From Gammaproteobacteria bacterium (GTDB taxonomy: Bacteria > Pseudomonadota > Gammaproteobacteria > Ga0077536), in NCBI GenBank assembly GCA_016191285.1, contig JACPPA010000021.1:78473-142472 (forward strand): DNA of 64,000 nucleotides, given 5' to 3'. The notes under the pieces are model-generated. The model did no database searches. It had not been told where the DNA came from and saw only the letters and a program-made list of their open reading frames with translations. The position numbers were made by a program, and so were the translations under genes. Shown here piece by piece: positions 15,655 to 29,971 of the stretch (its first letter is position 1; each line of letters starts with the position of its first letter).

Positions 15655-17658
15655 TCACCAAATCCGTAGGACGGATATCCCCCGAACTTTTTGCTTAACG
15701 ACCGATAAATGCTGGTTCCGCAAATCCCGTTCAAGGCGTTCCAACGGCGTAACGAAATCGGACGCGGTAGTGACCAGCATTATCTTCCTCACGGGATGAT
15801 CCAGGCGCTCAATCGTCACCATGCCATGCCAGAGTGGACGGGATTTCCGACCTGCGTCGGTATCGATCACTTCACCCACGACCCAGAGTCGAACCGCAAA
15901 CCGTTCCCGCAGATTGAGCACTCGGACGAATGTCAATGTTTGCGCTTCGCCATGATCAAACTTCGGCAGTACCGGCAGTTCCGCGATAGGCGTCTTGGCC
16001 AACATCCAGAGCGACGCTGTTTTTAAAGTCCAGGTGGGTGGGACGTGCCATCCCGACACAGCAAGCGTCTCGGAAATCCGCGCGGCCGTTCCAATCCACT
16101 GCACCGAAAACGGTTCTTCGTATTCGCCGTCGAGTTCGGAACGGGCCAACGATAAACTACGCCAACCCCCTGCGTTCCAATCGGCCAGCAATATAGTCTC
16201 CACTTTTGGCCGATAAGCATAACGCTCGAGGTCAGCACTGCGATGCCCTCTGACGTATACGGCGGCTACCAGCGCGAGCGTTGCCGAAACCATCAACAAC
16301 AGCGGGAATACGGATAATTTTTCAGTTTGCACGTGGTGCGTGTAAGCGATACTCAGGAGCGCAATCCAGGCAACGCCCAAGGCCAGGCTGCCGAGTACGT
16401 CCGAAAACCAGTGAACACCCAAATAGACACGTGAGAATGCGATCAGAAGGATCGCCACGGCTGCGACCAAAATCACGGCGATCTTTGTTCCAACGGGCTG
16501 TGCGCGAGCCAGCAGAAAGGCCATGAAACCGTAAACCACAATGCTCAAAGTCGTATGGCCGCTCGGAAATGAAAATTGTTCGATCCCCGTGTAAATGTTG
16601 TTTGGGCGCGTCCTGCGCAAGAGGTATTTCAATACCGAAACGAGAATCTCGGCAAAGCCGGCGGCCGCCAACCAATAGCCCAACGTGCGCCAATAGCGTT
16701 TGAAGCTGAGCCACGACGACACCACTACAACGACTGGAAGCGTACCGGCGACGCCGCCCATCTCGGTGATGGCAACCATAACGTTGTCTACCCACGCGGT
16801 TCTTAGGCCTTGTAACACGCTGTAAACCGTGCGGTCGAATTGAACCAGCCGGTCGCCAGAAACGACATCTTCCAAAATGCCCAAAAATAACCAAGCGCTG
16901 CCGATCAGCAACACGGCGGCAGTCAGAAGCGCAGCCGATTCGGCTCGCGCGGGATCGAACAGCGAAAGCACGACGCGCGCGAACGGTCCCGATTTGCCGC
17001 GCGCGAACTCCACCGTCCGATCGCGCAGGGTAATGAGTCGCGGCCAGCCGTGAGTGAGCGCGAATCGCACGAGCTTCGTCATCGCCCACAACACGATGAC
17101 AGTCGCCACCAGCAAGACGACCAGTCGCGAGCTCACGGCGCCCGCCAGTTGCAGCGAAGTGCCGAACAGCATGCCGGGCAGAATATGCGCGGCAGCCCAC
17201 GCCACTGCCGAAAGGATATTCATGAGGTAGAACTGCCCGGCCGGCATGTTGGACATCCCGGCCACCACCGGGACGATGGCCCGTAGCGGCCCGAGGAAGC
17301 GACCGAGAAACACGCTCTTGCCGCCGTTTTTGGCGAAATACGCTTGCCCGCGATCGAACAATCCCGGGTAGGTTTTCATCGGCCAAATGGCGCGAATTCT
17401 GTCGTGATAGCGCTGCCCGAGCCAGTAGCTGCTGCTGTCTCCCAGAATCGCGCCGATAACGGCGGCAACCACTGCTGACCATGGATCAAGGGCCTTGAGA
17501 CCGATCAGCACGCCACCGACGAAGACGATCGAGCTGCCCGGAATGACGGTACCGATGACAGCTAGCGCCTCGAGCAAAGACGCGGCGAAAATTGCGCCGA
17601 GCGCGAGCTGCGGATGGGCCGAAAAGAAGGCGATCAGCGATTGCAGATGCGATTCCAA
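15655..17658 (-). CDS. DedA-PAP2-LssY multidomain membrane protein
   Basis: 667-aa inner-membrane protein. Residues 1-200 are a DedA/SNARE-associated domain (FLGRFLGPLRAIVPVVAG) with several membrane helices. Residues about 240-440 are a PAP2-type phosphatase with KYLLRRTRP, SFPSGHTT (about 362-370) and SRVYLGVHWFSD, all three catalytic motifs intact. The last ~200 residues are a soluble LssY-type domain. It probably transports and dephosphorylates undecaprenyl or other lipid phosphates. The start is a TTG at 17658 with GAGGG upstream; no ATG or GTG is available before the preceding in-frame stop. It converges with the helicase gene; the 226 bp between them hold nothing I can identify. Confidence 0.85.
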   Translation of the reverse strand: MESHLQSLIAFFSAHPQLALGAIFAASLLEALAVIGTVIPGSSIVFVGGVLIGLKALDPWSAVVAAVIGAILGDSSSYWLGQRYHDRIRAIWPMKTYPGLFDRGQAYFAKNGGKSVFLGRFLGPLRAIVPVVAGMSNMPAGQFYLMNILSAVAWAAAHILPGMLFGTSLQLAGAVSSRLVVLLVATVIVLWAMTKLVRFALTHGWPRLITLRDRTVEFARGKSGPFARVVLSLFDPARAESAALLTAAVLLIGSAWLFLGILEDVVSGDRLVQFDRTVYSVLQGLRTAWVDNVMVAITEMGGVAGTLPVVVVVSSWLSFKRYWRTLGYWLAAAGFAEILVSVLKYLLRRTRPNNIYTGIEQFSFPSGHTTLSIVVYGFMAFLLARAQPVGTKIAVILVAAVAILLIAFSRVYLGVHWFSDVLGSLALGVAWIALLSIAYTHHVQTEKLSVFPLLLMVSATLALVAAVYVRGHRSADLERYAYRPKVETILLADWNAGGWRSLSLARSELDGEYEEPFSVQWIGTAARISETLAVSGWHVPPTWTLKTASLWMLAKTPIAELPVLPKFDHGEAQTLTFVRVLNLRERFAVRLWVVGEVIDTDAGRKSRPLWHGMVTIERLDHPVRKIMLVTTASDFVTPLERLERDLRNQHLSVVKQKVRGISVLRIW

Positions 17659-17945: not shown

Positions 17946-18036
17946 ATGGTGTGAGATGGATACCGAGTGCCCGCAGCGCGAGTCCGGGTAAGCTGCACAA
18001 CACCGCGAATGCGACGTAGAGGCTGAATTTCTTCAT
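17893..18036 (-). pseudogene. Possible N-terminal fragment of a cation exchanger-like protein
   Basis: 47-aa ORF starting MKKFSLYVAFAVLCSLPGLA and continuing LRALGIHLTPFVDALLAGA before it ends in RKAHARA. The LPG-ALRxxGxHLxP pattern resembles the first helix pair of sodium/calcium antiporter-type proteins, but the remaining ~300 residues are absent. It may be a truncated relic or a small membrane protein in its own right. The family call is tentative. Confidence 0.3.
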
Positions 18037-18241
18037 GGTCCGGTTGCGTCCCTCATTCCCATCAGGGAGCCTATAGTAAATCCACCTCTTATTTTTCCGC
18101 GGCAACGGGGAAAAAGCGGTTGTGATAGTGCCACAGACCCGTTTTTAGGATGATGATTGGGTCAGCGAAATCCCGGCCAATGGGTCAAACTTGGTTCAGC
18201 GCGCGCCGCGTGCCGCGCGTTTGTTCGGAGTCGAGAGCAAC

Positions 18242-18916
18242 ATGAAGATCCTGATCGTCGAAGACGAGCCGAAGACGGCTTCCTACTTGAGGAAGGGGCT
18301 CGACGAGAATGGCTTCGTCGCCGATCTGGCAGAGAATGGCGAAGACGGCGCGCACCTCGCACGCACCGGCGGCTATGACCTCATCATCCTCGACGTGATG
18401 CTCCCGGTTCGCGACGGCTGGTCCGTCATCCGTGAATTACGGCGGCGCGACGTCTCCACGCCGGTGCTCTTTCTTACCGCCCGCGATGCGGTTCACGATC
18501 GGGTGCAAGGATTGGAGCTTGGCGCTGACGATTATCTCGTGAAGCCCTACGCTTTCACGGAACTACTCGCGCGGATACGCTCAATCCTGCGGCGCGGCGC
18601 CACTCGGCAAGTCTCCGTCGTGACGGTCGCCGATCTGGCGATCGATCTCGTGCGGCATCGCGCTACCCGTGCCGGCAAACTCCTCGAGCTGACACCCAAG
18701 GAATTTTTGTTACTCTCGCTGCTGATGCGACGAACGGGCGATGTCCTGTCGCGGACGATCATTGCCGAGCAGGTTTGGGATATCAATTTCGATAGCGATT
18801 CGAACGTGGTCGATGTGCATCTGCGGCGCCTGCGCTTGAAGGTGGACGACCCCCACGAGAAAAAGCTGATTCACACGGTTCGGGGCGTCGGCTACGTACT
18901 CGAAGCGCGCTTGTAG
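18242..18916 (+). CDS. OmpR-family response regulator, heavy-metal type (CusR/IrlR-like)
   Basis: 224-aa DNA-binding response regulator. The receiver domain begins [20 protein letters not shown], with phospho-acceptor D51 in LIILDVMLP and conserved K101 (YLVKPYAF). The C-terminal winged helix has the [14 protein letters not shown] and [14 protein letters not shown] segments typical of this group. The start at 18242 fits the family exactly; a longer frame back to 18191 lacks homology. The sensor kinase begins right after its stop codon. It probably binds the palindrome at 20390-20413 to switch on the efflux genes. Confidence 0.9.
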
Positions 18917-20359
18917 ATGTCCGGCGGAACGAAATTGATCGGGCGCCTACCGAAGTCGATCGCGCTGCGCATGGCAGCTTGGTACGCGCTCTCAACCGTC
19001 GTGCTAATCGTCGTCGCCACGGGCTTTCTTTATTGGGTCTTGGTCACCAGCCTCGCGCGCGAGGACAGCCGTACTTTAGCCGACAATCTGGACAGTCTGC
19101 GCTTGTTGCTGCGCTCCTCGCCAAACGGTGCGTTGTCACTCCGTCCAGACCAGGCGCACGGCTGGGGGACAAGCCCACGGCAGCCACAAAGCTACTTTCG
19201 GATCCTCGACGACGGTGGGCGAATTCTACTGGAAACGCCGGGCCTGTCGGCAGAGCTGCCGCCGCCTACCCCGTCGGAACTGACAACGATCGGCGCCGCC
19301 GAAGCGACAAGCCATGAGGCCGTCTCCCCCTCAGGCAAACTGTTTCAGATCTTGAGCGCTAGAGTTTTGGACACCTCCACTGGCAACGCGACACGCATTG
19401 CTCAGGTGGCGATGGACCTCGCCAACGACGACGATCTGTTGGCGCGATATCGGCAGCGGCTCGTGCTCGTACTCACCCTCTCGGTCGGCATCTGCTCCAT
19501 GGTTGGTTATGTCATTGCAAAGGCTGGGATGCGGCCGATCAAGCGCATCGGCCAAACCGCAGAGCGCATCCGCTCGGCCACGCTCTTCGAACGGATTGAC
19601 ACGCTCCGCTTGCCGGTCGAACTCTCTGGCCTGGCCGAGACCTTCAACCGTATGCTCGACCGGCTCCAGGAGTCATTCGCGAGCATCTCGCAGTTCGCCG
19701 ACGATGTCGCCCATGAGCTACGCTCGCCGATCAACAATCTGCTCGGCGAGATCGAGGTCGCGCTCCGCAGGGCGCGATCGAATGCGGAGTATCGTGAGAC
19801 CCTCGACTCTTGCCTTGAAGAATGCGCGCGGCTCTCGCGAGTGATCCAGCGCCTGCTCTTTCTCGCCAGGACAGAGAATGCACCCGAACCGCTCGAACGC
19901 GAGATGATCGACGTCCGCAAGGAGCTCGCGGCGGTGCAAGAGTTCTACGAGGCGGCGGCAGCGGAAGTCGGCGTCGGTCTTCGCCTCTCGGTCGCAGACG
20001 ATCTCATGGCGCCGCTTGATCGCACGCTCTTCCAACAAGCGGTCGGAAATCTCGTCTCGAATGCGCTCGCGCACACACCGAAAAAGGGCACGGTCCGGAT
20101 CGCCGCGAGCGCTGACGCAGCATGGCTTAAGGTGAGTGTCACGGATACCGGGTGTGGCATTGCCGCGGAGCATCTGCCGCATGTGCTCGATCGATTCTAC
20201 CGGGTCGCTCGGGCGCGGGCGGAGTCCAGGCACCCTGTCGGACTCGGTCTTGCAATCGTCAAAAGCATTGTCGAACGCCACGCCGGAACCATTGAGATCG
20301 ACAGCCAAATGGGACAGGGCACAGCGGTGACGCTCAGGTTCCGGCGATTATCCGAATAG
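18917..20359 (+). CDS. Heavy-metal sensor histidine kinase (CusS-like)
   Basis: 480-aa inner-membrane kinase, the partner of the response regulator directly upstream (no gap between stop and start). A first membrane helix (about residues 20-45) and a second (about 175-195, LVLTLSVGICSMVGYVIAKAG) enclose a periplasmic sensor loop. A HAMP domain follows, then the H-box DDVAHELRSPINNLLGEIE with H266, and an ATPase domain with N-, G1- and G2-type boxes (QAVGNLVSNALAHTP, DTGCGI, GLGLAIVKSI). The inducing metal cannot be inferred; the periplasmic loop has few Met, His or Cys residues. Confidence 0.88.
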   Translation: MSGGTKLIGRLPKSIALRMAAWYALSTVVLIVVATGFLYWVLVTSLAREDSRTLADNLDSLRLLLRSSPNGALSLRPDQAHGWGTSPRQPQSYFRILDDGGRILLETPGLSAELPPPTPSELTTIGAAEATSHEAVSPSGKLFQILSARVLDTSTGNATRIAQVAMDLANDDDLLARYRQRLVLVLTLSVGICSMVGYVIAKAGMRPIKRIGQTAERIRSATLFERIDTLRLPVELSGLAETFNRMLDRLQESFASISQFADDVAHELRSPINNLLGEIEVALRRARSNAEYRETLDSCLEECARLSRVIQRLLFLARTENAPEPLEREMIDVRKELAAVQEFYEAAAAEVGVGLRLSVADDLMAPLDRTLFQQAVGNLVSNALAHTPKKGTVRIAASADAAWLKVSVTDTGCGIAAEHLPHVLDRFYRVARARAESRHPVGLGLAIVKSIVERHAGTIEIDSQMGQGTAVTLRFRRLSE

Positions 20360-20389
20360 GCCGCACTGGCGTCAGTCATAAGGCAGCCG

Positions 20390-20413
20390 CCAGATGACGG
20401 ATCCGTCATCTGG
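20390..20413. promoter_or_regulatory. Perfect 24-bp palindrome, CusR-box-like operator
   Basis: The core is ATGAC-6 bp-GTCAT, the same half-sites and spacing as the E. coli CusR box. It lies 80 bp before the TolC-family gene. Three additional GCGTCA half-sites flank it within 70 bp. There is no loop or T-run, so it is not a rho-independent terminator for the upstream kinase gene. Binding by the adjacent response regulator is inferred. Confidence 0.65.
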
Positions 20414-20492
20414 GCGTCATCGTGGCGTCAGCGTGCAGTTTCTACCCTGAGTCGGTTATGCGGGCTTTCCGCAGTACCGAGCAAGGGTTGGA

Positions 20493-21908
20493 ATGCATCC
20501 ACCGTACCAGGCGATTCTTCTTGCCGGCTTGACCGTGTTTGTCGCCGGCTGTGCAAGTTATCGCCCCGAACCTATCTCTCCGGCCGACAACGCGCGCTTG
20601 CTCGATCACCGGCGTCTGGACGATCCGCGTCTGCAGCAGTTCATCGCGGTGGGCCTTGACCGTGAAAGGAAGCCGGGTTCGCTTCCGACGTGGGACCTCT
20701 CGTCGCTCACGCTGGCCGCGATTTACTATCATCCCGATCTCGACATCGCGCACGCTAAGCTTAGGGGCGCCGAGGCAGGCGTGGTCACCGCCCATCAACG
20801 CCCGAATCCCCGACTTAATTTCACGAACATTTTTATCCAACCCGCCGTGGCTGGCGCCGCTCCACTTACGATCGGGCCGGTCATTGACTTCATCCTGGAA
20901 ACTGCCGGCAAGCGCGAGTACCGCACGGCACAGGCGCAGCATCTCGCGGAGTCCGCGCGGTGGGACCTCGCCGGGGTCGGCTGGCAAGTCCGCGCACAGG
21001 TGCGGACGGCGCTGCTGAACCTCTGGGCTGCGCGACAGCGCTTGACCTTGACCCGCCAGCGGCTCGATCTCCAGGCGCAACTCGTGGAGCTGGTCGAGCG
21101 ACGGCTTGCGCTGGGCGAGGCGGCGTCCCTCGATGTTGCACGCGAACGCATCAATCGTTCTCAGATCACGTTCGCCATCCGCGATCTCGAACGCGCTGCT
21201 GCCGATGCGCAGGCCCAGCTCGCGATCGCGATCGGCATTCCAGTGAGCGCGCTCGAGGGTGTCGACTTCGCGTTCGCAGCCTTCGACTTTCCGCCGACCT
21301 TAGCCGCGAACCTGGTCACGGGCGATTGGCGGCGCGCAGCGCTGACCACACGAGCCGACGTCCAGGGAAGTCTTGAGGCATACGCAGCGGCGCAGTCGGC
21401 ACTCCAGCTTGAGATCAGCAATCAGTATCCGAACGTGAGCTTGAGTCCTGGCTATAACTACGATTTTGGCGACAACAAATATATTTTCGATCTCGGCGTA
21501 GACCTTCCGATCTTCCACCAGAATCAAGGACAGATCGCAAGGGCGGTGGCTAATCGAGAGCAGGCGGCGGCCAACTTCACCGCGCTCCAGGCGCGGATCG
21601 TTGGCGCGATCGACCAGGCGGCGACGGCCTACCGCACGGCGGCACAGAGTTTGGTAACCGGCGATGCACTGCTGGCCGAGGAGCAGCGCCGCCAGCGTCA
21701 AATCAAGAACTCGTTCCGCGCCGGACAAGTTGACCGGCCCATGCTGGTGACGGCGGCGCTGGAAGTCGTCGCAACCGAACTGTCGCGATTTGACGTCGTG
21801 GTGGCGCAGCGGCAAGTACTCGGCGCGCTCGAGGACTCTTTGCAGCAACCCGTACTCGACCCGGCAATGGCCCGCCGTCCCGGCACGGAATCCCCGCCTC
21901 GTCGATAG
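20493..21908 (+). CDS. TolC-family outer-membrane efflux lipoprotein (CusC/CzcC-like)
   Basis: 471-aa outer membrane factor forming the exit duct of a tripartite pump. The N-terminus is a lipoprotein signal (ILLAGLTVFVAGC, cysteine near residue 20). Two long helical repeats typical of the family are visible (HPDLDIAHAKLRGAEAGV... and the second around YAAAQSALQLEISNQYPNV with a NYDFGDNKYIFDLGVDLPIF barrel strand). It is followed by the periplasmic adaptor after 12 bp and then the RND permease: outer, periplasmic and inner components in order. The transcription unit probably starts at the palindromic site upstream. Confidence 0.88.
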   Translation: MHPPYQAILLAGLTVFVAGCASYRPEPISPADNARLLDHRRLDDPRLQQFIAVGLDRERKPGSLPTWDLSSLTLAAIYYHPDLDIAHAKLRGAEAGVVTAHQRPNPRLNFTNIFIQPAVAGAAPLTIGPVIDFILETAGKREYRTAQAQHLAESARWDLAGVGWQVRAQVRTALLNLWAARQRLTLTRQRLDLQAQLVELVERRLALGEAASLDVARERINRSQITFAIRDLERAAADAQAQLAIAIGIPVSALEGVDFAFAAFDFPPTLAANLVTGDWRRAALTTRADVQGSLEAYAAAQSALQLEISNQYPNVSLSPGYNYDFGDNKYIFDLGVDLPIFHQNQGQIARAVANREQAAANFTALQARIVGAIDQAATAYRTAAQSLVTGDALLAEEQRRQRQIKNSFRAGQVDRPMLVTAALEVVATELSRFDVVVAQRQVLGALEDSLQQPVLDPAMARRPGTESPPRR

Positions 21909-21920
21909 GGAGCCGCCTTC

Positions 21921-23000
21921 ATGACCGACCGACCACCATCGTTCCGGCGAATGCCGCTACTGCGGATCATTGTGGTTGCAGTCGTTCTCGGTCTTGGCGC
22001 GCTCATCGTCTGGGGTTTCATCGAAGGTCGCGGCGAAGCGGCGCGTGAGGCTGAGCGCGAGCGTCCCGTCACGCCACCCCGCCGCGTGTCGATGGTGAAC
22101 GGCGCACCGGTTATTACGCTCAATGTCGAGTCGCAAAAACGCAGCAGGATCGAGACCACGGTGCCAGCGCCAGCGCCCTATCAGGAGCAGGTTCGTGCCT
22201 ACGCCACTGTCCTCGAGGTGGCGCGACTGATCGATCTCAATAGCAGCTACGCCAACGCCAACGCCCAGCGCCTGGCGGCACACGCCAAGCTCGCTGCCTC
22301 GAGCACCGCCTTCGAGCGCGCGCAGAAGCTTTACCAGGACCAACAGAATGTCTCCTTAGCGCAGCTCCAGGCCGCCGAAGCGGCGTTTCGCACGGATCAA
22401 GCGGCTCTCACTGCGGCGGAGTCGCAGGTGCGCACCTTGGCTACAACCGCACAACAAGAATGGGGTCCGGTGCTCGGCAAATCTCTCATCGACGGATCGT
22501 CGATGATCACCCGGCTGCTCGAGCGACAGGATTTCCTGTTGCAAGTCACCTTGCCGCCTGGCGTCATCCTCGCGGCTCCGCCCGCGACGGCGGCGATCCA
22601 GACTGGCCAGCACTCGCGCATCGCTATCATATTCGTCTCGCCAGCGACCCGCACCGACCCAAAGATCCAGGGTGTCAGCTTCTTCTACCTAGCGCCGGCG
22701 AATAGCGGCGTGCTGCCCGGCATGAATGTTCTCTCCTTCCTATCGTCAGGTCGACCGATCTCAGGCGTGACGTTGCCGGCGGAGGCGATCATCTGGTGGC
22801 AGGGCCGAGCCTGGGTTTATCACCGCACTGGTTCCGAGACGTTCACGCGGGCGGAGATCGCGACCGACCTACCGGCACCCGGCGGTGGCTATGTCGTCAA
22901 GGACTTTGCGCCGAACACCGAGATCGTGACGCGCGGAGCGCAATTGCTGCTGTCCGAGGAGTTTCGAGCGCAGATCCAGATCGGTGAGGACGAAAAGTGA
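21921..23000 (+). CDS. RND efflux periplasmic adaptor subunit (membrane fusion protein)
   Basis: 359-aa adaptor that links the inner-membrane permease to the outer-membrane duct. It has one N-terminal membrane helix (IIVVAVVLGLGALIVWGF), a lipoyl/coiled-coil portion (AFERAQKLYQDQQNVSLAQL) and beta-barrel and membrane-proximal parts to the end. It is shorter than CusB and lacks clusters of Met or His that bind copper or silver, so the substrate may differ. The stop overlaps the permease start by 4 bp (GTGA), indicating coupled translation. Confidence 0.85.
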   Translation: MTDRPPSFRRMPLLRIIVVAVVLGLGALIVWGFIEGRGEAAREAERERPVTPPRRVSMVNGAPVITLNVESQKRSRIETTVPAPAPYQEQVRAYATVLEVARLIDLNSSYANANAQRLAAHAKLAASSTAFERAQKLYQDQQNVSLAQLQAAEAAFRTDQAALTAAESQVRTLATTAQQEWGPVLGKSLIDGSSMITRLLERQDFLLQVTLPPGVILAAPPATAAIQTGQHSRIAIIFVSPATRTDPKIQGVSFFYLAPANSGVLPGMNVLSFLSSGRPISGVTLPAEAIIWWQGRAWVYHRTGSETFTRAEIATDLPAPGGGYVVKDFAPNTEIVTRGAQLLLSEEFRAQIQIGEDEK

Positions 23001-26000
23001 GCTGCGTCCCCGCCGGTCCCCAGGCCGCGATCATCGGTTTCGCGATTCGCTTCCGCGGCCTCGTCATTGCGTTGGCCTGCGTGCTGCTCGCCTACGGCGT
23101 CTATGCGCTCGGCCGCGCCAAGTACGATGTATTCCCGGAGTTCGCACCGCCCCAAGTCGGCATCCAGACCGAGGCGGTCGGGTTGACGCCGGAACAGGTG
23201 GAAATCCTCGTTACCCGGCCGATAGAGAACGCTATCAACGGCGTGCCGGGCGTACAAACGTTGCGTTCGACCTCGATCCAGGGGCTGTCCGTCGTCACCG
23301 TTTTTTTTAGTCCATCGAGCGACATCTATCGTGATCGGCAGGTGGTCGCCGAGCGGTTAGCCGCCGCGGCTCTGCAACTCCCACAAGGTGTACAGCCGCC
23401 GGCCATGACGCCGCTCACCTCGTCGACCAGCGTCGTGCTGGTGGCCGGCCTCACCTCGGACCAACGCTCGTTAATGGACCTGCGCACCGTCGCCGAATGG
23501 ACGGTCCGTTTGCGCCTGCTCGCGGTGCCCGGGGTAGCGAATGTCACGGTGTTCGGCGGCGATGAGCGCTCGATCCAGATCCAGGTCCATCCCGACCAAC
23601 TCATCCGCTACGATGTGGGTCTCAACGATGTCTTGACGGCAGCCCGGCAGGCCACCGGCGTACGCGGCGCGGGTTTTATCGACACCAAGAACCAGCGGAT
23701 CGTCTTCCAAACCGAGGGACAGTCACTCAAACCCGACGACATCGCGCGTACGGTGCTGCTGAGCCAGGGCGCGGCGAGTGTCATCTTGGGTGACGTCGCC
23801 GATGTTCGCGAGGCGCCCAAGCCGCCGATCGGTGGCGCGGCGATCGATGGCAAGCCAGGCGTGATCCTCAACGTCTCGGCACAGTACGGCGCTAACACTG
23901 TCGAGGTAACGCAGGCGGTGGAAGCCGCGCTGAACGAGTTACGGTCGAGCCTGAAAGCGGAAGACATCGCCCTTCATGCCGATCTGTTCCGCCCGGCGAA
24001 CTTCATCGACACCGCGACGAGCAATGTGCGGGATTCGCTGATGCTGGGCGGCATCCTGGTCATCGTGGTGCTGTTCCTGTTTCTCTTCGACTGGCGAACC
24101 GCGGCAATTTCGTGCACCGCCATCCCGCTGTCGCTCCTGACGGGAACGATCGTGTTGGAAATGCTCGGCGTGACACTCAACACGATGACGTTGGGTGGCC
24201 TCGCCATCTCGATTGGCGTGGTCGTTGACGACGCCGTGATCGGGATCGAGAACATCGTCCGGCGGCTGCGGGAGAACGGCCGACTAGCCCAGCCGCGACC
24301 GGTCGCGCGGGTCGTTCTCGACGCCTGTCTCGAAGTCCGGGGCGCGGTCGTCTATGCGACCTTCGCCGTCATCTTGGTAGTCCTTCCGATCATGGCGTTG
24401 TCCGGCATCGCGGGTCGCCTGTTCGCGCCACTTGGGCTCGCCTACACGCTCGCCGTGGTGGCCTCGCTGCTCGTCGCGCTCACCGTGACCCCCGCCCTCT
24501 CGATGGCGCTGCTTGCGGGCAGGAAGATGGCAGAAAAGGACCCGCCGGTGGTGCGGTGGACCCGCGCTGGTTACGAGCGCCTGCTACGCGATATCGCGCG
24601 GCGACCGCGGACCCTCATCGCCGCCGCGGCCGCGTTCTCGATTGCCGGCTGCGCGGCGCTGCCGTTCTTCGGCGGCACCTTCATCCCTGAGCTTAAAGAA
24701 GGACACTTCATCATCCATCTGTCGGCGGTGCCCGGCACCTCGATCGAGGAATCGCTGCGCATCGGCGCGCGCGTCGCCGAGGCCCTCAGGCAGTTGCCAG
24801 TCATACGCTCGGTGGCGCAGCGCGTCGGTCGCGCCGAGAAGGCCGAGGATACGTGGGGCACGCATTACAGCGAGTTAGAGGTAGATTTGAAACCCGGTTT
24901 ATCGGGGAACGAGGCCGAAGCGGCACAGGCCGGTATCCGGCAGGCGCTCGCAGGCTTCGTCGGCGTCCACTTTTCGGTCAAGACGTTCCTGACCGAGCGG
25001 GTCGAGGAAACTCTCTCGGGCTATACGGCCCCGGTGGCGGTCAATATCTTTGGCAACGATCTCGAGGTCCTCGACCGATCAGCGCAGGAAGTTGCCCGCA
25101 CGCTCGCTGCGGTGCCGGGCGCGACCGAGGTTCAGATCCAATCGCCGCCCGGCTTGCCGCAGCTCACCATCCGCCTGCGGAAACCCGACCTTGAGCGTTG
25201 GGGCTTCGACGCCGTCGAAGTGCTCGATCTGATCCGCGCCGCTTATCAGGGTGACGCTGTCGGACAGACCTATGAGGGCAACCAGGTTTTCGACGTTATC
25301 GCCATTCTCGATAGTGCGAGCCGGGACGCCATCACGAAGGTCGGGGAGCTGCCATTACGCAGCCCCGGCGGCGCTCATGTACTGCTCCGCCAGATCGCCG
25401 ATATCTACGAAGCTGCCGGACGCTACCAAGTGCTGCACGAAGGCGGGCGACGCCGGCAGACCGTGACCGCCAACGTTGCGGGGTCCGATATCGCCTCCTT
25501 CGATCAAGCGGCGAAGGCCGCTGTGGCGGCGAACGTGCCGCTCCCGGCCGGAACGTATCTCCAATTCGCGGGCGCCGCCGAGGCCCAGTCGCGATCGCAG
25601 CGCGATCTCCTCATCAACTCGTTCATCGCCGGTCTCGCCATGATTCTTCTGCTGTCGATCGTCACCCGCAACTGGCGCAACCTGCTGTTGATTCTGGCGA
25701 ACCTGCCGTTCGCGTTGGTGGGCGGCGTGCTCGCCGTGTTGGTCACGGGCGGCTTGCTTTCCTTGGGTGGAATGGTCGGGTTCGTGACGCTCTTCGGCAT
25801 CTCGCTCCGCAATTCGATCCTGATGATCGCCCACTACGAGCACCTGGTTGCAGTCGAGGGCATGAACTGGGAGCTAGCGACAGCCGTTCGCGGTGCTGGG
25901 GATCGGCTCACGCCGGTCCTCATGACCTCTATCGTGACCGGCCTCGGTGTCCTACCGCTCGCGATCGGCCTGGGGGATCCCGGCCGCGAGATCGAGGGGC

Positions 26001-26155
26001 CGATGGCGGTCGTGATCCTGGGCGGTTTATTGACCTCGATGGCGCTGAACCTGCTCGTACTGCCGACGCTCGCGTTGCGTTACGGCAGGTTCGAGCCCCT
26101 CATCGATGAACTGGCGGATGAGTCGCTCGGTGGGGGTAGCGTAGCCTCGAATTGA
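22997..26155 (+). CDS. RND efflux permease, heavy-metal (CzcA/CusA) family-like
   Basis: 1052-aa proton-driven inner-membrane pump with the usual twelve-helix RND layout; the two large periplasmic loops and hydrophobic blocks are present. The proton-relay helix reads GVVVDDAVIGIEN: it has two adjacent Asp, as in a CzcA-like subgroup and in drug pumps, not the single-Asp DGAV of classical metal pumps. The three methionines of CusA are not apparent. Its context with a Cus-type two-component system favours metal export, but the substrate is unresolved. GTG start overlapping the adaptor stop. Confidence 0.88.
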   Translation: MSCVPAGPQAAIIGFAIRFRGLVIALACVLLAYGVYALGRAKYDVFPEFAPPQVGIQTEAVGLTPEQVEILVTRPIENAINGVPGVQTLRSTSIQGLSVVTVFFSPSSDIYRDRQVVAERLAAAALQLPQGVQPPAMTPLTSSTSVVLVAGLTSDQRSLMDLRTVAEWTVRLRLLAVPGVANVTVFGGDERSIQIQVHPDQLIRYDVGLNDVLTAARQATGVRGAGFIDTKNQRIVFQTEGQSLKPDDIARTVLLSQGAASVILGDVADVREAPKPPIGGAAIDGKPGVILNVSAQYGANTVEVTQAVEAALNELRSSLKAEDIALHADLFRPANFIDTATSNVRDSLMLGGILVIVVLFLFLFDWRTAAISCTAIPLSLLTGTIVLEMLGVTLNTMTLGGLAISIGVVVDDAVIGIENIVRRLRENGRLAQPRPVARVVLDACLEVRGAVVYATFAVILVVLPIMALSGIAGRLFAPLGLAYTLAVVASLLVALTVTPALSMALLAGRKMAEKDPPVVRWTRAGYERLLRDIARRPRTLIAAAAAFSIAGCAALPFFGGTFIPELKEGHFIIHLSAVPGTSIEESLRIGARVAEALRQLPVIRSVAQRVGRAEKAEDTWGTHYSELEVDLKPGLSGNEAEAAQAGIRQALAGFVGVHFSVKTFLTERVEETLSGYTAPVAVNIFGNDLEVLDRSAQEVARTLAAVPGATEVQIQSPPGLPQLTIRLRKPDLERWGFDAVEVLDLIRAAYQGDAVGQTYEGNQVFDVIAILDSASRDAITKVGELPLRSPGGAHVLLRQIADIYEAAGRYQVLHEGGRRRQTVTANVAGSDIASFDQAAKAAVAANVPLPAGTYLQFAGAAEAQSRSQRDLLINSFIAGLAMILLLSIVTRNWRNLLLILANLPFALVGGVLAVLVTGGLLSLGGMVGFVTLFGISLRNSILMIAHYEHLVAVEGMNWELATAVRGAGDRLTPVLMTSIVTGLGVLPLAIGLGDPGREIEGPMAVVILGGLLTSMALNLLVLPTLALRYGRFEPLIDELADESLGGGSVASN

Positions 26156-26935: not shown

Positions 26936-28261
26936 TCACTCCTCGTCCGGTGCCGCGAGTAGCCATTCGTAGACAGGCTTCACTTGCACCATCGATGCCT
27001 TGATGCGTGTGAGCGCATCGCGATCGAGTACGAGTAGTCGCTGCGCAGCGCCTGGGTGATCCTGTGCCGCCTCTCGGAGGGCGCGCAGCTCACGTTCCAG
27101 GGTCGCCGGTGAAGATACGTCGGCACAAACTTGGATCAACGTTTCTCCAGAGCCGCGTTGGCGCGCGAGGAAGTCCACTTCCCAACCATCGCCGGTTTTG
27201 ACATAGGTAATATCGGCGCCGCGCCGCTCGAGTTCGTTCAAGACCACCGTTTCGAGTGCATGACCGACGTTAGCGCGCCCGCTCGAATCGAACGCTTTGA
27301 TGAATCCGGGATCAGCTGGATAGAGCTTACGCGGGTTCGAATTCCGTTTGCGCTCAGACTCCGTCGCGAGCGGCACCGCGCTAATCAGAAAGGCGTCCAT
27401 CAGATGCCCGAGCATCGCGTGCACGGCATCCTTGGCAACACTGTGACCTTGGGCTTTTAGATCGTGATACAGACGATGGGCACTGAAGCTGCTGGCGGGG
27501 TTACGCAGGCACTGTCGGATCAGCCAGCGCAACGCTGCCACTTGCGAGACCGCGTAGCGTTCAACGACGTCGCGAAACAGCACCGCGTCCACATAGCTTT
27601 GCAGCAACTCGATTTGTAGGGATGTGGTTAGACCCTGGGCTTCGGGAAAGCCACCTTGCGAGAGATACTCGCGAAAGCGTTTTTCGATACTTGAACGCTC
27701 TGCCGCCCGCCACAGTCGCGGCGCCTTCTTTGGCTCTTCGCCGCGATGACGCAGGAACTCGCGAAAGCTAAAGGGACGAATAACGGTTGCCATGCCGCGG
27801 CCGCGAAGTGAGGTATGCACTTCACGCGAGAGCATGCGCGCTGACGATCCGGACACCACGATGTCGACCGCTTCTGTGTCGAGTGCGCGACGCACGAAGC
27901 GCTCCCAGCCGGGCACAAACTGGATCTCGTCCAAGAACCAGTGCACCGTCTGGCGGCCCCGCAATGCTGGGTAACGACGGTAGTACTCTTCGAGCAGGAA
28001 ACCCAGCTGCGCAACGTCCACACCGGCTAGTCGATCGTCGTCAAAACTAAGATAGAGCGATTGCTCGGGTGGCAATGATCTGCGGCGCGTCGCCAACAGT
28101 TGGCGTAGGAAGGTTGTTTTGCCTGCGCGGCGCAGCCCGATCACGGCATGCACTTTGCCGGGCACGGCCGGCAGCTCGGCATCGCGGCGTGTCAAACTGG
28201 CCCCGTGCCCCGGTTCGAGGGCCGAGCTCAGTTTCTCTGCCAGCACGGGATGCAAACTCAT
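26936..28261 (-). CDS. AAA+ ATPase with DUF4143 C-terminal domain
   Basis: 441-aa protein of the ATP-binding family widespread in mobile DNA. Walker A is GLRRAGKTT (about residues 42-50), Walker B is VHWFLDEIQ, followed by a VSGSSARML sensor-type segment. The C-terminal domain contains YVKTGDGWEVDFLARQ, which resembles the nuclease-like core of DUF4143. Such proteins have no settled function; defence and toxin-like roles have been proposed. A perfect inverted repeat 18 bp upstream of its start suggests tight control, perhaps autoregulation. It is one of two genes in the tRNA-flanked mini-island. Confidence 0.8.
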   Translation of the reverse strand: MSLHPVLAEKLSSALEPGHGASLTRRDAELPAVPGKVHAVIGLRRAGKTTFLRQLLATRRRSLPPEQSLYLSFDDDRLAGVDVAQLGFLLEEYYRRYPALRGRQTVHWFLDEIQFVPGWERFVRRALDTEAVDIVVSGSSARMLSREVHTSLRGRGMATVIRPFSFREFLRHRGEEPKKAPRLWRAAERSSIEKRFREYLSQGGFPEAQGLTTSLQIELLQSYVDAVLFRDVVERYAVSQVAALRWLIRQCLRNPASSFSAHRLYHDLKAQGHSVAKDAVHAMLGHLMDAFLISAVPLATESERKRNSNPRKLYPADPGFIKAFDSSGRANVGHALETVVLNELERRGADITYVKTGDGWEVDFLARQRGSGETLIQVCADVSSPATLERELRALREAAQDHPGAAQRLLVLDRDALTRIKASMVQVKPVYEWLLAAPDEE

Positions 28262-29895: not shown

Positions 29896-29971
29896 TGGTG
29901 CGCCGTGTAGGGTTCGAACCTACGACCAACGGATTAAAAGTCCGCTGCTCTACCAGCTGAGCTAACGGCGC
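29896..29971 (-). tRNA. tRNA-Lys (anticodon TTT)
   Basis: On the minus strand the 76-nt gene folds into a full cloverleaf: acceptor GCGCCGT/ACGGCGC, D arm GCTCAGCTGGTAGAGC, anticodon arm GCGGA-CTTTTAA-TCCGT, T arm GTAGG-TTCGAAC-CCTAC and an encoded CCA. The anticodon TTT reads lysine codons. It is the integration target of the island to its left; the 3' half is duplicated at 26616-26663. Confidence 0.97.

Follow-up and report, generated by a model that had tools for sequence, protein, structure and literature searches.

A candidate four-half-site operator for a CusR/CopR-class regulator in front of an RND efflux operon

The efflux locus and its possible signal

The window, by which we mean the whole 64,000-nucleotide stretch of DNA analyzed here, carries a two-component system followed by an efflux operon, all on the forward strand. 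The first gene (18242-18916) encodes a 224-residue OmpR/PhoB-class heavy-metal response regulator with Response_reg and Trans_reg_C domains, which aligns with E. coli CusR and retains the phosphoacceptor Asp51. It passed TIGR01387, the model for cztR/silR/copR heavy metal response regulators (330.7 bits, cut-off 279.2), and did not pass the CusR equivalog model NF007346 (295 bits, cut-off 420). A heavy-metal sensor histidine kinase gene follows (18917-20359; TIGR01386, 360.2 bits, cut-off 292.55). The efflux operon opens with a TolC-family outer membrane gene (20493-21908; OEP, PF02321) and continues with a periplasmic adaptor, or membrane fusion, gene (21921-23000) and a CusA/CzcA-like RND permease gene (22997-26155; ACR_tran, PF00873), whose TIGR00914 score of 665.7 bits lay slightly under the cut-off of 701.45. 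The adaptor gene was assigned from weak TIGR01730 and TIGR00999 matches, both below cut-off, and the assignment also fits its position, which is the same in the operons of relatives; a Pfam search returned no match for it. Between the end of the kinase gene at 20359 and the start of the TolC-family gene at 20493 lies a gap of 133 bp. It holds the palindrome that the initial annotation had placed between these genes, about 1.5 kb downstream of the end of the regulator gene.

Several other features adjoin this locus. A divergent gene with VTT, PAP2 and LssY_C domains (15655-17658) neighbors the regulator gene, and an AAA_14/DUF4143 ATPase gene (26936-28261) lies beyond the operon on the opposite strand. 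A tRNA-Lys gene (29896-29971), a possible insertion landmark, is found about 3.7 kb past the operon.

The G+C content of the operon is 62-64%, as compared to 52-61% for other 4-kb stretches of the window, and no relative of the regulator at an E-value of 1e-60 or better was found in five other genomes of the genus. Based on these two observations, the efflux operon (18000-26155) was probably acquired.

The permease is 28% identical to E. coli CusA. At the columns of M573, M623 and M672, which we take to be the CusA methionine triad (the letters agree with the K-12 CusA sequence), it has H, Y and E. CusA residues E939 and K984 are replaced by R and V, and D405 and E625 are kept. At the columns of H42, F43, S84, M133, M135, H145 and H176, presumably the periplasmic ligands of CusS, the kinase has S, L, four gaps and D in a region that aligns loosely. 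Since the permease lacks the methionine triad, these comparisons give no support to copper as the signal, and another metal or another signal appears as likely as copper or silver.

The half-site array between the kinase and TolC-family genes

The sequence CCAGATGACGGATCCGTCATCTGG at 20390-20413 is a perfect 24-bp palindrome with an ATGAC-N6-GTCAT core beginning at 20394, exactly as first described. It is the longest perfect palindrome in the window, the runner-up being 16 bp. Perfect palindromes of at least 24 bp arose in 4 of 200 simulated windows of 64 kb each (order-2 Markov), so the length by itself is only modestly unusual. We did not accept the 24-bp length as what makes the site significant.

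Four half-sites step through the gap at intervals of 11 bp, the first pair inverted and the remainder direct. Half-site 1 (20394-20398) reads ATGAC on the forward strand and is thus inverted, and half-site 2 (20405-20409, GTCAT) begins at +11 from it; the register of both is kept in relatives. This inverted pair conforms to ATKAC-N6-GTMAT across 20394-20409. On the forward strand, half-site 3 (20416-20420, GTCAT) begins at +22 and half-site 4 (20427-20431, GTCAG) at +33, and they are followed at +49 by a predicted -10 element, TACCCT (20443-20448, forward strand), which is a weak match to consensus. In the relatives examined, the core and the direct half-sites are conserved and the outer CCAG...CTGG arms of the palindrome are not. 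As judged from this comparison, the conserved unit is the 38-bp array of four half-sites with a -10 element at a fixed distance, rather than the 24-bp palindrome.

The palindrome had also been credited with three flanking GCGTCA half-sites. All three copies are present (20369-20374, 20414-20419 and 20425-20430), but only the latter two are in register, their GTCA at 20416 and 20427 extending the 11-bp steps from the GTCA at 20405 in the palindrome's right half. The upstream copy, on the forward strand with its GTCA at 20371, is off this register. Its offset of -23 was absent from the eight best GTMA offsets in related loci (the best 80 of 563), and it probably falls outside the operator. A scan for the sigma-70 consensus found no forward-strand promoter, and no composite (the half-site array with its -10 element) was found upstream of the window's regulator gene.

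No second copy of the palindrome within three mismatches was found in the window. The core ATGACN6GTCAT occurs at seven sites in the genome, versus three for a backward control, and the other six all have different spacers; we therefore rejected a repeated genomic element. The exact composite occurs once in the 5.1-Mb genome, and 12 sites matched at up to one mismatch versus 8 for the control, which led us to reject a larger regulon defined by the composite. Likewise, only one regulator in the genome exceeds the TIGR01387 cut-off, with 51 of the 52 matches to this model falling below it. With a single exact composite and a single such regulator, the two appear to form a switch devoted to one target. 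A single target is also reported for E. coli CusR without a phosphodonor, according to the excerpted text of PMC8249747.

Recurrence of the register in related and known systems

The same register was found upstream of related operons. Two loci (L031 and L033) have ATGAC-N6-GTCAG-N6-GTCAC, L037 has ATGAC-N6-GTCAT, and L024 has ATGAC-N6-GTCAC-N6-GTCAT located 3' of a kinase gene that accompanies a 63%-identical regulator. A -10-like hexamer recurs 26-27 bp past the start of the third half-site in related operons. We scored the composite upstream of 18 of the 19 TolC places outside the window, dropping L046 because its start was too near a contig end, and wider pieces were taken for 8 of the 19. 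Four of the 18 (L030-L033) scored 12 of 14; the fraction of mononucleotide shuffles attaining this was 0.0026. Among these four, L032 has ATAAC/GTTAT as its pair, and L030 reached its score even though the fetched piece contains only a 37%-identical regulator. Scores of 11, reached in 0.031 of shuffles, were obtained for L037 (regulator 64% identical), L039 and L045, followed by 10 for L034 (64%) and 9 for L048 (63%). A search of genome contigs with the TolC protein found no relative.

Across 369 genomes of the class, the pattern ATGACN6GTCAN7GTCAN{22,24}TANNNT had 15 matches in 13 genomes, the window included, as compared to one match for the backward pattern. A regulator of at least 50% identity was present on the same fetched piece of 7-14 kb for 10 of the other 14 matches and absent from the piece for four (L077, L079, L081 and L082). 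L081 lies near a contig end, and L079 is on the same contig as L080. On this contig of one class genome, three composites fall within 12 kb (L079:7448-7502, L080:2045-2099 and L080:4932-4986), which suggests a multi-promoter island.

We quantified the register in loci chosen by regulator similarity, namely the best 80 of 563 relatives (L096-L175), to which all counts in this and the following paragraph apply. ATTAC and GTAAT were separated by 6 bp in 30 cases and by each other distance from 0 to 15 bp in 0-2, and ATGAC and GTCAT by 6 bp in 25 cases and by each other such distance in 0-4. An exact inverted pair occurred in 56 of the 80 loci, with the third half-site also present in 44. The anchor ATKAC-N6-GTMAT gave 154 oriented sites in 56 loci, versus 8 for the strictly reversed motif, and 122 were left after dropping those at least 75% alike. 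Of these 122 non-redundant oriented sites, 46 had GTMA at +22 and 9 had it at +33, and 27 had TANNNT at +49, with at most 5 having TANNNT at any other offset. The third half-site was absent from 76 of the 122, a count in which many entries are simply the wrong side of a site because each palindrome is taken in both directions. TANNNT at +48 or +49 accompanied 22 of the 46 sites with a third half-site versus 10 of the 76 without (Fisher p = 3.5e-5). Among the same 46, 16 had [GA][TA]CA at +33, against 0-2 for any one of 18 other offsets, and the third half-site was GTCA in 43, many of them with a GTAAT-type inverted pair.

Sites with an inverted pair and a third half-site numbered 62 in these best 80 of 563 loci, and 49 of them were near the regulator gene. 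Specifically, 33 were within 400 bp upstream and pointed away from it, 7 were within 400 bp upstream and pointed toward it, and 9 were within 1.8 kb after it and pointed downstream, with none there pointing back; 13 were elsewhere. The regulators of the closest operons are 74-78% identical to that of the window. Two of these operons (L096 and L097, regulator 75-76%) share the window's gene order and carry four half-sites between the kinase and TolC genes, with TAGGCT and TAAGCT at +49. A third (L098, 78%) has four half-sites after the kinase gene on a piece that stops before any pump gene, and its hexamer, TATACT, is one base earlier, at +48. L096-L098 have GTAAT- or GTTAT-type inverted pairs rather than GTCAT ones, and L112 has four GTCAT-type half-sites. 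Regulators with an NAID recognition helix were paired with TGAC/GTCA sites. We sought a rule connecting residues of the recognition helix with the dialect of the site (GTCAT or GTAAT) and found none, as NVID and NVIE occurred with both.

The initial annotation's comparison with the E. coli CusR box is borne out at K-12 cusC, which has ATGAC-N6-GTCAT-N6-GTCAC-N6-ATCAG, with the third and fourth half-sites at +22 and +33 assigned by our reading of the K-12 sequence, and TAAAGT at +49. The gene arrangement is different: the E. coli box is located between the divergent cusRS and cusCFBA, whereas the window's genes are co-directional and the box sits between the kinase and TolC-family genes.

An inverted-plus-direct arrangement is already known from AgrR, and the window site adds another example. 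In the parts of PMC7380067 drawn upon here, AgrR binds the inverted repeat ATKACA-N4-TGTMAT, some operators add in-phase direct half-sites, and mutating either the inverted or the direct repeats lowers activation. AgrR promoters are described there as having a fair -10 and a poor or absent -35, and class II activation is proposed. The window does not match the strict 16-bp AgrR consensus as given in that text, reading ATGACG-GATC-CGTCAT with G/C in place of A/T at the sixth base of each arm; L110, L112 and L114 depart likewise at the sixth base of at least one arm. Unlike the AgrR box presented in these parts, the window site has two direct half-sites on the promoter side. Its inverted pair is centered at about -54 from the predicted start, as compared to -43.5 for AgrR's own box and "slightly more upstream" for others. 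AgrR is also autoregulated in this account (PMC7380067), whereas the window's regulator gene has no visible box in front.

Four plasmid operons were examined from among 44 plasmid records, 15 of them listed. The plasmid of Caulobacter sp. S6 (NZ_CP073079.1; L187) has the same order of regulator, kinase, TolC, adaptor and RND genes, a 73.5%-identical regulator and a permease gene about 75% identical in DNA. Like the window, it has four half-sites between the kinase and TolC genes; unlike the window, it has a second full composite ahead of the regulator gene (L187:3635-3694). The regulator's own control thus differs between close relatives. The +49 hexamers of its two composites are TATAGA and CATACA rather than TANNNT, and TATAGA, the one between the kinase and TolC genes, sets it apart from the window. 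No composite scoring at least 12 of 14 was found in three plasmid pump operons with other types of regulator: two from Rhodanobacter (L188, with a 41%-identical regulator, and L189) and one from Acidithiobacillus caldus with an ArsR-type gene (L190).

Alternative explanations and a proposed mechanism

Taken together, we consider it probable, at roughly 0.87, that the palindrome would supply the inverted pair that anchors an operator of four half-sites, through which the efflux operon would be activated by its CusR/CopR-class neighbor. The earlier description of a CusR-like box linking regulator and pump agrees with the TIGR01387-type neighbor and with the occurrence of the box beside related regulators; what changes is the unit, which becomes the 38-bp array plus its -10 element. 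Several observations weigh against this reading: the weak TACCCT hexamer and the lack of a forward-strand promoter in the sigma-70 scan, the center near -54 and the sixth-base departures when compared with AgrR, the low composite scores of L034, L037 and L048, the score of 12 in L030 with only a 37%-identical regulator, the L187 hexamers, the four class matches with no such regulator on the fetched piece and, in the best 80 of 563 loci, a third half-site missing from 76 of 122 oriented sites and a fourth present in only 16 of 46.

The palindrome could instead act as RNA, forming a hairpin in read-through transcripts from the kinase gene that dampens or processes expression of the pump genes. 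The segment 20360-20495 does fold stably (-67.4 kcal/mol, z = -5.09 relative to 200 shuffles), with the palindrome forming a stem of 9-10 bp. However, the relatives examined keep the half-site letters and the 11-bp steps and not the outer stem arms, and a hairpin leaves the direct half-sites 3 and 4 unexplained, which makes this role quite improbable. A terminator or attenuator as the main role was rejected, there being no terminator-like site and the stem arms not being kept in the relatives examined. Pure coincidence of a palindrome and repeats in a GC-rich gap is exceedingly improbable: equally long palindromes did appear in 4 of 200 simulated windows, but the register and the distance to the -10 element recur in other operons.

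A different OmpR/PhoB-class regulator might be the main occupant of the site, PhoB with its box of 11-bp direct repeats being an example. Taking TATAGT to be the -10 element of E. coli phoA, its GTCA repeats lie 26 and 15 bp from the -10; half-sites 3 and 4, which have the same 11-bp step, lie 27 and 16 bp from theirs. The window's direct pair is therefore within 1 bp of the phoA pho box position. The genome's 52 matches to the TIGR01387 model, 51 of them below cut-off, also speak for this alternative, and the excerpted text of PMC11195947 describes targets shared by CopR, CusR and CzcR in Pseudomonas. Against this, the pho box has no inverted half-site. In many genomes, moreover, it is next to regulators of the TIGR01387 type that the composite is found, and the three plasmid pump operons with other regulators lack it. 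We regard control mainly by a non-neighboring regulator as very improbable.

For the adjacent regulator, the sequences suggest the following order of events. The sensor kinase would change the phosphorylation state of the regulator, and regulator molecules would sit on both pairs, the inverted one at 20394/20405 and the direct one at 20416/20427. The inverted pair would anchor the regulator and the direct pair would set it against sigma-70, covering the place of the missing -35 within 1 bp of the phoA pho box position relative to the -10. From this position the regulator would assist sigma-70 RNA polymerase in engaging the -10 at 20443, and the TolC, adaptor and RND genes would be transcribed from a start near 20455. 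The analysis directly establishes the sequence, its register and conservation, and the regulator's family; we infer binding and activation, where transcription starts, what the signal is and a contact like that of PhoB. PhoB sites overlap the -35, where PhoB is held to contact sigma, in the portions consulted of PMC4415409 and PMC3348028, and Pseudomonas putida CopR footprints contain several TGACA-like motifs in the excerpted part of PMC12428095.

As a switch, the window site is well formed, yet it belongs to a kind already known and is unremarkable within it. A broader proposal, which we put forward tentatively and at slightly under even odds, is that CusR/CopR-class operators share a fixed four-part grammar: an inverted anchor of either dialect (GTCAT or GTAAT), followed by a direct pair at +22 and +33 that has GTCA first with both anchor dialects and takes the pho-box position relative to a -10 at +49. 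L187 is an exception to the GTCA-first part, being GTAAT-type there. This grammar is not spelled out in the papers examined, and no statement of the +22/+33/+49 register was found in our literature search, whose scope lay outside the original CusR papers. If true, one winged-helix regulator would use two geometries at one promoter, a symmetric one to anchor itself and a tandem one to contact sigma, and metal two-component systems would follow this rule in general, with E. coli cusC among them. The locus also cautions against taking a CusR-like box as a sign of copper. It provides a defined, testable site from which this apparently acquired efflux operon would be controlled, and the unit to test becomes four half-sites plus a -10 element in place of the 24-bp palindrome. 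In genomes that lack annotation, the register can serve in the search for targets of metal response regulators.
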